A stretch of DNA of 21,171 nucleotides from a virus. Below the pieces are notes generated by a model. It was not told the origin of the DNA, made no database searches, and was given only the letters and a program-made list of their open reading frames with translations. Below are positions 3,524 through 21,103 of the stretch, one piece after another. How positions within the stretch are numbered: position 1 is the first letter of the stretch; the number at the start of each line of letters is the position of its first letter. A program made the translations under genes and the position numbers. The stretch is taken from IMG/VR virus record IMGVR_UViG_3300034198_008207, positions 1 through 21,171 of that record; one strand, 5' to 3'.

Positions 3524-4057
3524 TTACCCTAGCAGGGCGCGTATCTGCCGAATCAAATTGGGCATATCGCTGTTGTTCTCAATAACGGCGTCAAACTCCC
3601 AACCATCAAGATCAATCTCAGAAATGTGATCGTTAGCAGGCCCGATGCCAATGCGGTTAATTCGCCAGACTTGGCCATTCTTATGACGTTTAATAGCAGC
3701 GGCTTCGTTCTTAAACCTTACGTCTGTAATAACAATCTTTTCGGTAGTGTTGTACTTTCGCAAAGCTTGGTCAATCCAAAAGTCAGTTCCAAAAATGTCG
3801 CGAGCGCCTACGCCAAGGTCTTGAAGTAAACGACGAATTTCCGGAAACTCTGTCTTGGCAGCTTCCCAGCCTTTATAGTCCACAATGTCTTGCAACCTAA
3901 AGTCTGTCCTATTGAACATAATTAACGGATCAACTTCATACAACATTTCTTTAATCTTGTCCGCAAAAGCTACACGTTGATAGTGATGAATACCCATAAG
4001 CATGCCAGCAACTGTGTCTTTCCCTGAACGTGCGTAACCTGAAAGTCCAATGATCAT
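3524..4057 (-). CDS. Deoxynucleoside monophosphate kinase (P-loop)
   Basis: A 177-residue P-loop kinase that would convert dNMPs to dNDPs for phage DNA synthesis, acting in the cytosol. The Walker A motif GYARSGKDT is at residues 7-15. The lid/substrate region carries FADKIKEMLY and GWEAAKTEFPEIRRLLQDLG, with the phage-kinase signature GTDFWIDQAL. A core strand ends in ITDVRFKNEAAAI. The length is short relative to T4 gp1, and the layout fits the compact dNMP/dephospho-CoA kinase-like family common in actinophages and cyanophages. The start ATG at 4057 overlaps the stop of the 59-residue gene as ATGA. Substrate specificity (dGMP, dTMP or hydroxymethyl-dCMP) cannot be told from sequence. Confidence 0.85.
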   Translation of the reverse strand: MIIGLSGYARSGKDTVAGMLMGIHHYQRVAFADKIKEMLYEVDPLIMFNRTDFRLQDIVDYKGWEAAKTEFPEIRRLLQDLGVGARDIFGTDFWIDQALRKYNTTEKIVITDVRFKNEAAAIKRHKNGQVWRINRIGIGPANDHISEIDLDGWEFDAVIENNSDMPNLIRQIRALLG

Positions 4058-4233: not shown

Positions 4234-5159
4234 AGAACTGCCCTCAATCCATGTACTGAATGTCTAGCGTTAGCTATACCTAAACGTACCTCATCTAAGC
4301 TCATTCCGCCAATATCTTTCATATCTGTATGAGCGTAGCTAAAAAACCACGCTTCCATGCCAAACTCTCTACAGGTGTGAAGCATTTTCATGGAAGCGTT
4401 TTTACCGGCTTCATCGTTATCTAAAGCAAATATAAGACGGTCTGCCCCGCGAAGGTATAAAAGCTGTGAGGCGGACACTAAAGCTCCATAAGTAGCTACG
4501 CCGCCACGTATTCCTACGGAAGCTAAACGAACAACATCTAACGGAGATTCGACAACAATCATGTCGCTTCCAACATATTGTTTATACCCAAATAAAGAAT
4601 CGCTTTTTTTAATTTTTGCCGGGCGGTTATTGAAATAACGTTGCTTGTATCCTTTTTCTTGCCACCCTAAAAGCTTTTCAGTCTTGGCATCCCTAATAGG
4701 AATAATCCAATTTTCATTTCTAGAATCCCAACGAAGCTCGTAAGCCCTGGCCGCCTGTAATGAAAGACCTCTAGCGTCTAGCGCTTCTTGTGGCGGATCT
4801 ACAAAAGCACTGAGCATGGACTCAGTAATAATAGTTGGCTCTTCAATCGGCCCCTTTTGTTCTTGAGTAAGGCGATTAAACCTAGACACTAAAGCAGAAG
4901 GTGAAGCAAACCACTCACGTGCTTTATCAAGTTCAACCCCGCCCACATAACTTAATAAAGTGTAAAGGTTTCCTTTGAACTGACATGAAAAACAAATGAA
5001 CGCCCCTGTATCAGAGTTAATCCAAAACGAAGGGTTTCTATCTGCGTGCCCGGTTCGCTCTTCGTGGGCAGGGCAATAGCTTTGAACTTCATCTCCGCGA
5101 GTGGTTATAGCCTCCATGCCAAGACGAGCAAGGGTGTCCTGCATCTCCTCAACTGTCAT
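4230..5159 (-). CDS. DnaG-type DNA primase (CHC2 zinc finger plus Toprim)
   Basis: A compact 309-residue primase making RNA primers for the lagging strand. The N-terminal CHC2-type zinc finger is visible: C29 and H32 in SYCPAHEE, C56 and C59 in FICFSCQF, with the conserved ADRNPSFWIN between them. The Toprim domain is at about residues 195-265, with the catalytic glutamate E204 in MIVVESPLD and the acidic pair D247 and D249 in ALDNDEAG, which bind metal. A primase core segment (IIPIRDAKTEKLLGWQEKG) lies between the two. There is no C-terminal helicase domain; the helicase is the separate gene just upstream, overlapping by four bases. The chain is shorter than bacterial DnaG (about 600 residues), as in many phages. 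The start ATG at 5159 is fixed by that ATGA overlap. Confidence 0.93.
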   Translation of the reverse strand: MTVEEMQDTLARLGMEAITTRGDEVQSYCPAHEERTGHADRNPSFWINSDTGAFICFSCQFKGNLYTLLSYVGGVELDKAREWFASPSALVSRFNRLTQEQKGPIEEPTIITESMLSAFVDPPQEALDARGLSLQAARAYELRWDSRNENWIIPIRDAKTEKLLGWQEKGYKQRYFNNRPAKIKKSDSLFGYKQYVGSDMIVVESPLDVVRLASVGIRGGVATYGALVSASQLLYLRGADRLIFALDNDEAGKNASMKMLHTCREFGMEAWFFSYAHTDMKDIGGMSLDEVRLGIANARHSVHGLRAVL

Positions 5160-17461: not shown

Positions 17462-19518
17462 TTGTTAGCCGCTCCCGCTAGTACAACTGTCTCATTAAAA
17501 TACTCTTTGATGGCTTTTGCAATAGCTTCTGGGTCATTGCCTGTTACGTTAAAGGTAACTCCACCATAATTAACCGTGTTTGTTGAGGCTGCAGAGGAGG
17601 CTCCGGTAGTTGCTTTAGAGCCTACATTGTAATCTGCGCTAATTTTTGACCAGTCAACACCTTTATAACGAGCTTCATCCCAGCTTGATTGGGAAAGGGC
17701 TGCAAAGATCGCTTCTTTTGGCGCACCAGCTTTAAATAGTTCGACAATTTTATCGTACCCGCGGGCTTTAGATTGATTTCCTGTTAAAGTGTTGTATGTA
17801 GCGTCTAAGCCTTGATCAACACTTGTATACGCCTGAACGCCTCTTCCTTCTTCTTTAGACTTAAAGTTAACAGAGCCAGGCATTTGGTATCCAGTATTAA
17901 GTGGATTATAAGAGGCGCTATTTTTCCAAGCTCCACCTTCTTTTTTCATCCAAATTACCATTGCGTCAATGTTTTCTTTGGTGGTCGGTGCCCCTATTTT
18001 TTTCAATAAAGCAACAGCAAAATCACGTGGGTTATTTCCTACAGTGCTAGAGGATCCACTTGTAGATCCTCCAGTGGCACCTCCAGTGGCACCTCCCGTA
18101 GTGCCCGTGTCTGCGTTAGCGCCTTCTATGCCTAAACCTGTAACTAGACCAATGTCGGTTGCGGCTAAGCCTAAAGCAAGAGCGGCGGTAGCAAGGATGC
18201 CACCTTTAGTTAGCATTAACGCAAGGCCTTTTTTACCAGTGTCATTGGCCGCACCCATATAGGTAAGAACTTTTGCGTTTGTTTCAGTAAGGGCTTTCAT
18301 TTGAGGTAAGAATTTTTCGGTAATTGTTAAGCTAAAATCACCTAAAGCAGTTGCTGCGGAAGCGTAACCTTTAGCTCCAGCTTCAGCAGTTGCACCTGTT
18401 TGTACTGCGCCAGCTGCGTTTCTGTAGCTTTGAGCGTTAACGGCAGCAGTAGTTCCACCAAGTTCGGTAAGGGTTGCTTTATCTATTGATGCGCCTTTAG
18501 TTTTTGCTTTATAAAGCAAACCATTAGCAACAAGTTGTTTTGCCATTGGGTCATTACCAAAGTACATATCAAGCATGGAATCCATAGAGTTTCCAGGTTG
18601 AAGGCCAATTAAAACTTCTCGTTCGCTAGGTGTCTTACCTGCTCCGTACGCACCAGCATAATCGCGGCAAATCTTTTTCCAAAGATCATCAATAATTTGA
18701 TCTGGCGGTTTCATATTTCCGTTAGAATCACGAAGTTGAATACCGATACCGCGAAGCATATTTACGTTTCTACCTTGTTGCATAGAACCATACGCACGCA
18801 TAGTGCCTTCAAAACCAGCACCTGGAAGAAGATTTGAAACGCTAGCGACACCGCTAGCCACGCTGCCCATTCCGCCAGCGCCTTGCGTAACGTTTGGCCC
18901 AGTGACACCAATGCTTTGCGCGGCAGCTAAGCCTCGCATAACATCCATTTTATCTTTAGTGGTAGACGCAGCAGCTAAAAGCCCTTGAGTTTTATTTATT
19001 TGGTCATAGCTTTTTCCGTTGAAATAGCCGGTACGAGACATCAAAAGTTGAGCTTCTACGCTTTCGCCAGGTTTATCAATTGCTCCTGAAGTAACTGCCG
19101 CGGTGTATAAAAATCCTGCAGAAGCATTCTCGGTTATATATCGAGTAAGGCTAGTGTTACCGCTGTAGTTAGACCCTCCGCCACCGCCGCCTCCGCCGCC
19201 TGCTTGAGCAGATGAACCCCCGCTACCGCTACCGCCACCGCCACTAGCGGAGCCTCCACTATTAGCGGAGCCGTTGGCAACGGTATTAGAGGTTGCAGTA
19301 GCGCTAGATGGAGGAGTGAATTTAGGGTTGGGAGCAACCTGGTTTGAAGACACGCCTCCAATAGACCCGCCACCACTACCCGCAGTTTGTAGTTTGGAAA
19401 GGCCAGTGCCGAGAGTATTTGCCCAGCTCTGTGTTTCTTGTTTAAGCAGATTCATCTGCTGACGGACATCAGAGAGGCCGTTTTTTATTTCAACAATGAC
19501 GTTACGTGGATCTGCCAT
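17458..19518 (-). CDS. Tape measure protein with muralytic (lysozyme-like) domain
   Basis: A 686-residue protein in the tape-measure position, between the assembly protein and baseplate genes. Residues 1-45 form a helix or coiled coil. Residues 47-120 are a Gly/Ser/Pro linker with runs of glycine. The middle is Ala-rich and helical, with one hydrophobic span at about 431-463 that may enter the membrane. Residues 495-623 resemble the lysozyme-like domain of actinophage tape measures and lysins: VIWMKKEGG with a candidate catalytic E527, SASYNPLNTGY, GVQAYTSVDQGLDATYNTL and a final SSWDEARY. It would cut peptidoglycan during genome entry. A repeated GGAT linker joins the parts (18068-18103). 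The chain is short for a tape measure, so the tail should be of modest length. A GGGAGG site in the preceding frame serves the ATG at 19518. Confidence 0.85.
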   Translation of the reverse strand: MADPRNVIVEIKNGLSDVRQQMNLLKQETQSWANTLGTGLSKLQTAGSGGGSIGGVSSNQVAPNPKFTPPSSATATSNTVANGSANSGGSASGGGGSGSGGSSAQAGGGGGGGGGSNYSGNTSLTRYITENASAGFLYTAAVTSGAIDKPGESVEAQLLMSRTGYFNGKSYDQINKTQGLLAAASTTKDKMDVMRGLAAAQSIGVTGPNVTQGAGGMGSVASGVASVSNLLPGAGFEGTMRAYGSMQQGRNVNMLRGIGIQLRDSNGNMKPPDQIIDDLWKKICRDYAGAYGAGKTPSEREVLIGLQPGNSMDSMLDMYFGNDPMAKQLVANGLLYKAKTKGASIDKATLTELGGTTAAVNAQSYRNAAGAVQTGATAEAGAKGYASAATALGDFSLTITEKFLPQMKALTETNAKVLTYMGAANDTGKKGLALMLTKGGILATAALALGLAATDIGLVTGLGIEGANADTGTTGGATGGATGGSTSGSSSTVGNNPRDFAVALLKKIGAPTTKENIDAMVIWMKKEGGAWKNSASYNPLNTGYQMPGSVNFKSKEEGRGVQAYTSVDQGLDATYNTLTGNQSKARGYDKIVELFKAGAPKEAIFAALSQSSWDEARYKGVDWSKISADYNVGSKATTGASSAASTNTVNYGGVTFNVTGNDPEAIAKAIKEYFNETVVLAGAANK
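18068..18103. repeat. Short tandem repeat in the tape measure linker
   Basis: A 12-base unit, CCTCCAGTGGCA on the plus strand, occurs perfectly at 18068-18079 and 18080-18091, with a degenerate third copy to 18103. It codes for the repeated Gly-Gly-Ala-Thr linker before the muralytic domain. It could expand or contract by slippage without breaking the frame. Confidence 0.8.
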
Positions 19519-19521
19519 TTG

Positions 19522-19677
19522 TTAACTACCTCCCTTATATCTTTGAGTCCGCTCTAGCCAGTTCTGTCGTTCTCTAACTGACAAGTTACGAATCTCTGTT
19601 AATGTCCACCCAGTAAAAGTTCTAGTGAGTAGTTCATACTCATTTAAAATTGCTTCATAATCAGTAGTGCTATAGGC
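19522..19677 (-). CDS. Frameshift extension of the gp26-like tail assembly protein (51 codons, no start codon)
   Basis: An open frame in the +1 register relative to the gp26-like gene. It runs from the slip candidate to TAA at 19522-19524, three bases before the tape-measure ATG. It encodes AYSTTDYEAILNEYELL and then TRTFTGWTLTEIRNLS and VRERQNWLERTQRYKGGS. There is no ATG or GTG and only one late TTG, so it cannot be an ordinary gene. The W-x-x-x-E-I and E-R-x-x-W-L pattern is like the second parts of tail assembly chaperones, which are made by frameshift at exactly this position, directly before the tape measure. Shifted product: 262 + 51 residues = 313. The alternatives are a one-base assembly or sequencing error, or a pseudogene scar. 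Confidence 0.7.
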   Translation of the reverse strand, partial: AYSTTDYEAILNEYELLTRTFTGWTLTEIRNLSVRERQNWLERTQRYKGGS

Positions 19678-20464
19678 GAAACAAATCTGTCAAACTAAGT
19701 GGTAAATTAATATCTTCACCGCATGCCTGACAAGTTTTCTTCACCTCCCCGAGGCGTGGGCCTGGGTTGCGTTCAATAATTTGATTAAGTATTTTTTCTC
19801 GATCAGCCATGCCTAAAGACAAAGCTGTAGAAGCACCTGAAGAGGGGCGCCCATCAAGAGACAAAATACATCCGGCCAAAAGAACGGTGTTAACCTCAGC
19901 TGGTGTTTTGTCCATGTTATCCACAAGACGTCGTTGTACTACGCCAGTTGGAAGGGCTACTCCAGCATCTCCCTTTTTAGTTTTAACAATAAATGTTCGT
20001 TCTTCAAGTGTATTTTCAAGTTTTTTGGTTGGGACGTCAAAAATTAAATGAACTTCACATGACTGAGCGGTTTTACAATCAGGACATGTAATGTTTAGTT
20101 CAAGAGTGTCACCAAAAGTAGCGCGTCGGATGGCAATAAGAATCGCGTCCCTATCTCCAGCTAACAAGTTATCCACAGACTCTCTAGTTGCCTCTTCACT
20201 GCCAATTTTTACTAAACCGCGTTGTAAAAGGACGTTAAAGGCTTTAGCCGCAGATCCAGCTTTAGCAATCAATTCCTCATCCATTCCGTTTAGCTCGCGA
20301 ACTTCCGCTGTTCTAACTACTTCGTTATTAGCGGTTACATATCCGCCGGGTAAAGTCACTTCTGACTCTGAAGGTACCCGAGTCTTGATAATAGCCTCGG
20401 GTTCCCTCATCGCCTGTTCAGCAAATTTTGATACTAATTCTGCGTCTGTAATTATCTCAGTCAC
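19670..20464 (-). CDS. T4 gp26-like baseplate/tail assembly protein with two CxxC pairs
   Basis: A 264-residue protein from a GTG start (20464) with AGGAG upstream. Its two cysteine pairs, C127/C130 in TCPDC and C245/C248 in TCQACGE, probably form one zinc site bringing the middle and the C-terminus together. LPGGYVTANNEVVRTAEVRELNGMDEE near the N-terminus, split over residues 38-64, and the closing INLPLSLTDLF fit the T4 baseplate/tail assembly family (T4 gp26/gp51-like), found in many myoviruses between the tail tube and tape measure genes. By position it would act in tape-measure and hub assembly. The end of the gene is unusual: a 51-codon frame in the +1 register follows without a start codon, so a fraction of ribosomes may make a longer form. 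Confidence 0.82.
   Translation of the reverse strand: MTEIITDAELVSKFAEQAMREPEAIIKTRVPSESEVTLPGGYVTANNEVVRTAEVRELNGMDEELIAKAGSAAKAFNVLLQRGLVKIGSEEATRESVDNLLAGDRDAILIAIRRATFGDTLELNITCPDCKTAQSCEVHLIFDVPTKKLENTLEERTFIVKTKKGDAGVALPTGVVQRRLVDNMDKTPAEVNTVLLAGCILSLDGRPSSGASTALSLGMADREKILNQIIERNPGPRLGEVKKTCQACGEDINLPLSLTDLFRL
19676..19684 (-). other. Candidate +1 slippery site UUG UUU CGC
   Basis: The overlap of the two frames is only 20 bases (19670-19689), because the downstream frame has a TGA at 19690-19692. Within it, the codon UUU (19679-19681) followed by C allows tRNA-Phe to re-pair from UUU to UUC, its better codon. The next codon is then read as GCC in the new frame. The UAG stop of the zero frame follows two codons later. 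Confidence 0.5.
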
Positions 20465-20491: not shown

Positions 20492-21103
20492 TTATTGAAC
20501 TTTATCTGGATCTAAGTCTGACTGGTAAGCATCTGATGCTGAGCCACCCTTTGTAAAGGCTACCGAAAGTCCTTCATGGACTAGCTGCATTGACTCAAAC
20601 AATAGTGCACCATCATTTGCGTTTAGGTCAGTGTAGTTCAAACCAGTAATCCAAGCGTTTTGGACTTTAAAGACCATTTTTGGAGTATTGGTTGCTGCTG
20701 CGTTTGGGTGATCCATAACGTAAATATTAATATTTACGCGGAAGGTCTTATTAGCGGTAGTTGTAGCAATACCTTCGCCAGATGATGCCGCAAAAAGGCC
20801 TCTCATCCAAGTAATTGCTTGATCGCTGCCGTAAAGCACGCCACGTTGGAACGTGATTGGGCTAAATGTAGTCATACCCGGCACTTGGTGAACAGTGGTG
20901 TTGTAGCCACCTTCACGGTACTGGATTGCCTGTGTAGTGATGTTTAGACCACTGATGTTAGTAAAACCACCTGTCCATCCGCTAGTGATTCTGTTGTCAA
21001 ACTGAGTCTCTCCAGCGGCGGTAAACTCCGCGTAGAACCGAAACGAGCGTAACGGATCAGTTGCAATCGTGGAAAAACGATTGATATTGCTAGTTGTTGC
21101 CAT
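20492..21103 (-). CDS. Tail tube protein, T4 gp19-like
   Basis: A 203-residue protein of the T4 gp19-like tail tube family, which stacks as hexameric rings around the tape measure. Seen: DPLRSFRFYAEF at the N-terminus, GFTNISGLNITTQAIQYREGG, then PGMTTFSPITFQRGVLYGSD, the classic tube-family centre, TWMRGLF, and near the C-terminus KVQNAWITGLNYTDLNANDG, then LLFESMQLVHEGL. The strong AAAGGAGA site precedes the ATG at 21103. The next gene upstream is probably the sheath, the usual order in contractile phages. Confidence 0.94.
   Translation of the reverse strand: MATTSNINRFSTIATDPLRSFRFYAEFTAAGETQFDNRITSGWTGGFTNISGLNITTQAIQYREGGYNTTVHQVPGMTTFSPITFQRGVLYGSDQAITWMRGLFAASSGEGIATTTANKTFRVNINIYVMDHPNAAATNTPKMVFKVQNAWITGLNYTDLNANDGALLFESMQLVHEGLSVAFTKGGSASDAYQSDLDPDKVQ

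Follow-up and report, generated by a model that had tools for sequence, protein, structure and literature searches.

Frameshifted tail assembly chaperones are well known in phages, and most of them shift by -1. The closest described systems are gpG/gpGT of lambda and gpE/gpE+E' of P2, in which overlapping frames between the tube and tape-measure genes yield a short and a long chaperone, the second frame being startless in both phages. A 2016 review treats T4 as an exception to this conserved tail-chaperone frameshifting and lists the haloarchaeal myovirus HSTV-2 as a likely +1 case (PMC5009743), and the SEA-PHAGES data also include forward (+1) cases (PMC10885494). The Listeria phage PSA, which the original prediction for the locus described here had cited among frameshifted chaperones, does not belong in this list, as its +1 cases are the capsid and tail-shaft genes (PMC5009743). 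Among eukaryotic viruses, UUU_CGN is an established +1 motif: influenza A PA-X arises by P-site slippage of tRNA-Phe at UCC_UUU_CGU (PMC3498833), and UUU_CGN has been proposed as the +1 site of plant amalgaviruses (PMC5052127).

The DNA that we analyzed, referred to as the window, is a viral stretch of 21,171 bases (IMG/VR record IMGVR_UViG_3300034198_008207) whose minus strand carries all of its major genes. A gp26-like gene lies between a gp19-like tube gene and a large gene in the tape-measure position (Table 1), an order that is the same in the BRock group of Streptomyces phages. We put the probability at roughly 0.88 that the product of this gene is a tail assembly chaperone that belongs to the T4 gp26/gp51 family and exists in two forms, the longer of which would be made by a +1 slip of the ribosome.

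Table 1. Features of the frameshift locus in the window.
Feature	Position	Strand	Basis and remarks
Tail tube gene (gp19-like)	20492..21103	-	PF06841, E = 1.5e-26; upstream of the gp26-like gene
gp26-like gene (T4_baseplate, PF12322), 264 aa	19670..20464	-	PF12322, E = 1.2e-10; candidate short (G-like) chaperone form
Shift site UUG_UUU_C (E-site UUG, P-site UUU, CGC in the A site)	19678..19684	-	Predicted, from relatives
Zero-frame stop UAG	19670..19672	-	Sequence; CGC CUA, two codons between UUU and UAG
+1-frame C-terminal part, GpE-like, 51 codons plus stop	19522..19677	-	Startless; open in all relatives
Large gene in tape-measure position, 686 aa	17458..19518	-	Position, length, and own Shine-Dalgarno GGGAGG

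The gp26-like frame ends in CTT AGT TTG ACA GAT TTG TTT CGC CTA TAG, giving a protein that closes with LTDLFRL. The +1 frame is open from 19689 to 19525, overlaps the gp26-like frame by 20 nt (19670-19689), and stops at a TAA (19524-19522) that only three bases (CAA) separate from the tape-measure ATG at 19518. Its first codon after UUU_C is the GCC at 19677, from where it reads GCC TAT AGC and onward, and its predicted fusion with the gp26-like part comprises 313 residues. All coordinates and counts given in the original prediction, including the overlap, the 51 codons, and the length of the fusion, agree with the sequence. The absence of ATG and GTG from the second frame, also part of that prediction, is confirmed, and the single TTG comes only after the conserved W..EI motif. 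SD-like sequences stand ahead of the gp26-like GTG (AGGAG) and of the tape-measure ATG (GGGAGG); no such signal was found before the second frame in the window. The locus resembles P2 and lambda in its gene position, overlapping frames, and startless second frame, but differs from them in direction: a canonical -1 heptamer (X_XXY_YYZ) is absent at the window's junction, where the -1 frame holds stops, and by sequence the junction falls into the UUU_CGN +1 class, with UUU_CGC in frame and the +1 frame immediately open. The protein in the tape-measure position has no Pfam family above cut-off and no match among phage records.

A further difference from P2 lies in the first part of the protein, which has 91 aa in P2, whereas the window encodes a 264-residue T4 gp26-like protein with two CxxC-type zinc-ligand pairs (C127/C130 and C245/C248) that matches PF12322 at 41.9 bits, above the gathering cut-off of 24.5. 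The second part carries the motif W-x-L-x-E-I-R-x-L-S-x-R-E-R-x-x-W-L, bearing out the tail-chaperone-like features that had been noticed in it. A similar motif, W...E(L/I)...(M/L)S...E, is present in the E' frame of P2 (HWPPSELYPMSLTELITWREKA), but the direct sequence match to P2 GpE stays below threshold: Phage_P2_GpE (PF06528) is hit in 9 of 20 relatives, at best with E = 6.4e-4 and 19.6 bits against a cut-off of 23. A sequence search of the PDB with the second part gave no match.

An AF2 model of the zero-frame gp26-like part only (pLDDT 89.7) was compared by Foldseek with 350,542 PDB chains, the best two of which both belong to the HK97 tail assembly chaperone 2OB9; these matches are weak (probability 0.84 and 0.77, E = 0.46 and 1.1). 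Alignment by VIA-align gave Z = 6.3 over 95 residues with an rmsd of 3.9, where a Z below 8 can reflect a common arrangement, and the next matches were the uncharacterized proteins 3FGX (Z = 5.9) and 5IR0 (Z = 3.9), with all others at 3.2 or less. By the cautions that go with these tools, the model is suggestive of a fold kinship with the HK97 chaperone but does not prove it. Among predicted viral structures, it matches T4-like baseplate hub assembly proteins with E = 1.3e-20.

To follow the junction in relatives, we collected 59 loci by an IMG/VR search with the gp26-like protein and 80 by a profile search (contigs partly shared), together with 10 isolate phage records and 14 GTDB genomes. 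These comprise freshwater phages, Streptomyces phages, and actinobacterial prophages, and include 148 records in which the +1 junction can be read, of which 102 are unique over 320 nt; the metagenome sequences are mutually related and were thinned. Within the window itself, the 8-mer TTGTTTCG occurs once against 1.06 occurrences expected by chance, so evidence of its significance must come from these relatives. The alignment that had been proposed as a check shows UUU_C in an unchanged position throughout the 148 records and in 102/102 unique junctions, with two codons between UUU and the zero-frame stop in 90 of the latter and three in the other 12. Elsewhere in these genes, an in-frame UUU_C is seen at 9 of 403 Phe codons. 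Across 52 sequences less than 92% identical to one another, zero entropy is confined, among the codons near the site, to UUG and UUU, whereas the Leu codons at -4, -6, and -8 take several synonyms, and the UUG-UUU region forms the longest invariant block in the DNA alignment. The bias persists in GC-rich relatives, where UUU occupies the site in 10 of 10 clusters but makes up 5% of Phe codons elsewhere (11/223); on a rough estimate that assumes independence, the probability of this by chance is about 0.05 to the tenth power.

The A-site codon is likewise restricted. It is CGN in 93 of the 102 junctions (CGC in 42, CGU in 42, and CGA in 9) and never CGG, and the remaining nine junctions have CAA, CAG, CTC, CTG, or CCG, all of the form CNN. 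CGC, CGU, and CGA would be the codons readable by an inosine-34 tRNA-Arg, and the bias, with CGG never used, suggests dependence on one tRNA-Arg isoacceptor. Judged by comparison of the relatives, a programmed +1 frameshift at the junction is near certain.

The frames lie one base apart in a metagenomic contig, and a sequencing or assembly indel within what is in reality one continuous gene had been named as a refuter. A continuous frame is found in none of the 148 records, and the same break recurs in assemblies made independently, in Streptomyces phage isolates, and in the chromosomes of bacteria, which refutes this explanation and leaves it a negligible probability.

The second frame also bears the marks of a translated sequence. 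Differences between relatives are distributed over its three codon positions as 0.294/0.172/0.534, compared with 0.298/0.172/0.530 in the gp26-like frame over its final 40 codons, and no stop interrupts it in any of 84 sequences. By this pattern, the second frame evolves as a protein under protein-level selection, which, with the invariance of UUU_C, supports the +1 reading of the original prediction. A rival reading makes the second frame a separate small gene that starts at a non-standard codon (ATT or ATA) and is translationally coupled to the gp26-like stop. The frames do overlap with the stop close by, the second part in Lysobacter (L082-L084) starts at an ATGA overlap in another frame, and the annotation of cyanophages assigns the second part an internal ATG. 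However, no start codon is conserved in the second frame: 47 of the 102 junctions lack any ATG, GTG, or TTG through codon 15, and the +1 frame opens just 5-8 nt upstream of UUU in 45 of the 102. In the window, no SD sequence stands ahead of it, and coupling leaves both the invariance of UUG-UUU and the use of UUU in GC-rich genomes unexplained. A separate gene with its own start is hence rejected for the +1 set, although it may hold for some copies in eCIS, and the coupled variant is highly improbable.

In one contig only (L009, about 3620-3760), a short deletion puts the second part in frame with the tape measure gene; this fusion may be a real variant or an assembly fault.

From these sequences, and in part from analogy, we infer the following course of events at the programmed +1 site. 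Most ribosomes would stop at the UAG and release the 264-residue gp26-like protein. A fraction would slip by +1 with tRNA-Phe on UUU in the P site, the tRNA re-pairing from UUU to UUC before the CGN codon in the A site is decoded, and would then read GCC-UAU-AGC and onward to yield the 313-residue fusion with its GpE-like C-terminal part. The same frame could be entered by a -2 slip, as used by phage Mu (stated in PMC3498833), or by transcriptional slippage. Reasoning from the sequence, UUG UUU CGN offers neither tRNA-Phe nor tRNA-Arg a good -2 re-pairing, and a run of three U is too short for the polymerase to slip on, whereas tRNA-Phe re-pairs perfectly when it moves from UUU to UUC; we regard such entry as very unlikely.

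The original prediction drew attention to the UAG just behind the site. This stop is probably not the main trigger of the shift, because the codon in the A site is almost always CGN, which makes the site the UUU_CGN motif of eukaryotic viruses. Influenza A PA-X and the amalgaviruses share with the phage junctions the P-site UUU, the following C, and the A-site CGN (PMC3498833, PMC5052127), but they involve eukaryotic ribosomes and unrelated proteins, and the E site is UCC in PA-X versus UUG or CUG in the phage junctions. The argument from a rare CGN codon is also not obviously applicable here: CGC and CGU are not rare in the window (10 and 14 per thousand), so a "hungry codon" trigger is not evident and codon frequency does not explain slow decoding of CGN. 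The invariant UUG, on the other side of the slip, suggests that the E site contributes to the shift.

As for other stimulators, no convincing 3' RNA structure was found (z of 0.56 in the window), and an SD-like stimulator of the kind used in prfB was rejected, being absent in 23 of 27 clusters. A 5' hairpin 8-50 nt before UUU is paired at 82-90% in held-out AT-rich relatives and at 60-65% in GC-rich ones, compared with 23-69% in slid controls. It is possible that this hairpin helps the shift; the stretch is also protein-coding.

The original prediction expected an unusual version of a frameshifted chaperone. A +1 site that would fuse a gp26-like protein to the second part is indeed what the relatives show, but it is not isolated and forms one branch of a widespread family. 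In the Streptomyces phages BRock, LuckySocke, Alone3, GiJojo, and pSt2308, the gp26-like gene has CUG UUU followed by CGC or CAG and then the same +1 part, which the records leave unannotated or present as a hypothetical protein of its own that begins at an internal start. At the four actinobacterial genome loci that we examined, the gene sits within BRock-like prophages; assignment of these four loci to eCIS was rejected, as homologues of the BRock terminase, portal, or major head protein lie nearby. The SP-15-like phages L278 and L279 have UUU_UUU_C with the +1 frame open, and Listeria phage LIS04 has UUU_UUU_A, again with the +1 frame open.

In T4-like cyanophages, the same gene pair is joined by a site for a shift in the opposite direction. 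The gp26 gene of Synechococcus phage S-RIM8 ends in GCU AGU UUU UUC GGA UAG (L197, 6453-6641), and the canonical -1 heptamer U_UUU_UUC stands just before the gp26 stop in 76/76 unique junctions (L197 and L198-L277). As in the actinophages, the short form ends in FF, the extension is homologous, and a large tail protein comes next, but the junction is -1 rather than +1. The -1 frame yields an extension such as YSLTEIENMIPWEREVYIALLKQ, whose last 46 residues GenBank lists as "baseplate hub assembly catalyst"; the annotated 46-aa "gp51" thus misses the first part.

T4 itself also has both forms, here as two genes. Like the gp26-like protein of the window, T4 gp26 (E = 8.8e-64) and gp51 (residues 1-201, E = 3.9e-52) match PF12322, both over the full length of the family, and the two are paralogues (L070, 5803-7229), with a GpE-like C-terminal extension in gp51 alone, equivalent to the frameshift part. 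Unlike in the window, the short and long forms are divergently transcribed, and T4 gene 26 shows neither a slippery site nor an open GpE-like extension. The gp51 extension aligns with the cyanophage -1 extension at 97.1% (E = 6.1e-11), and the complete cyanophage fusion and gp51 align over their entire lengths at 99.1% (E = 2e-18). The actinophage +1 fusion is collinear with the cyanophage -1 fusion across the junction at 92.9% (E = 3.6e-7); its direct match to T4 gp51 is weak (56%, E = 1.1e-4). Followed from the +1 fusion through the cyanophages to gp51, these alignments indicate that a short/long pair is made by +1, by -1, or by two genes. We consider it likely that PF12322 represents the G/GT-type tail chaperone in T4-like phages and in many others with contractile tails, with the pair produced via +1 at UUU_C in actinophages and SP-15-like Bacillus and Listeria phages, via -1 at U_UUU_UUC in cyanophages, or by duplication in T4, where gp26 would be the short and gp51 the long form.

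Further gp26-like loci show other arrangements. An uncultured 595-kb phage (L067, LR756511) has GGU UUU UUC with the -1 frame open, a -1 version, and an uncultured large phage (L066, LR756508) has AAC UUU CUA with the +1 frame open. In Lysobacter and Ramlibacter (L082-L085, about 4670-4710), a DUF6760-like part follows the gp26-like gene in the -1 frame, with a nine-T run in GC-rich DNA at the junction; the Ramlibacter copy lacks an ATG, and its locus is an eCIS, with eCIS_core proteins, sheath, and tubes. An injection system may here make use of -1 frameshifting or of slippage during transcription.

As to function, we infer the chaperone role from gene position, the motif, analogy, and a fold match that is weak. 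If the pair works as G/GT does in lambda and E/E' in P2, the tape measure protein would be coated by the short form, and the long form would bring tail tube subunits to the tape measure. Alternatively, the frameshift could be real and its product a baseplate hub assembly factor, since both T4 gp26 and T4 gp51 have been listed as chaperones of hub assembly (PMC3004832). The tube and tape-measure neighbors, the GpE-like C-terminal part, and the first rank of the HK97 chaperone among the fold matches point instead to tail length and tube assembly. Since gp29, the tape measure of T4, is counted as part of its "hub", the two roles may be one; we judge a hub factor distinct from a tape-measure/tube chaperone to be unlikely.

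A +1 shift has precedents among tail chaperones in the cases proposed earlier for HSTV-2 and in SEA-PHAGES (PMC5009743, PMC10885494), to which the window is likened by shift direction only, and is therefore not a novelty in itself. As far as the open literature shows, the novelty lies in the protein family (T4 gp26/gp51), in the strictness of the UUU_C site in bacteria, and in reading T4 as a split version; our search of that literature found no earlier description of gp26/gp51 frameshifting, with subscription literature outside the search and priority accordingly uncertain. By the same measure, the junctions would be the first large collection of natural UUU_C +1 sites from bacteria, in which the roles of the E-site UUG and the A-site CGN could be dissected. 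In the annotated phage records that we inspected, the long form is missed or the second part is given a false internal start. Should T4 carry its short and long forms unlinked, as gp26 and gp51, then the T4 puzzle becomes testable, by asking whether the last 48 residues of gp51 bind the tube protein gp19 and whether gp26 binds the tape measure gp29. The proposed reading of PF12322, if true, would account for T4 as the exception to tail-chaperone frameshifting and would give gp51 a function.
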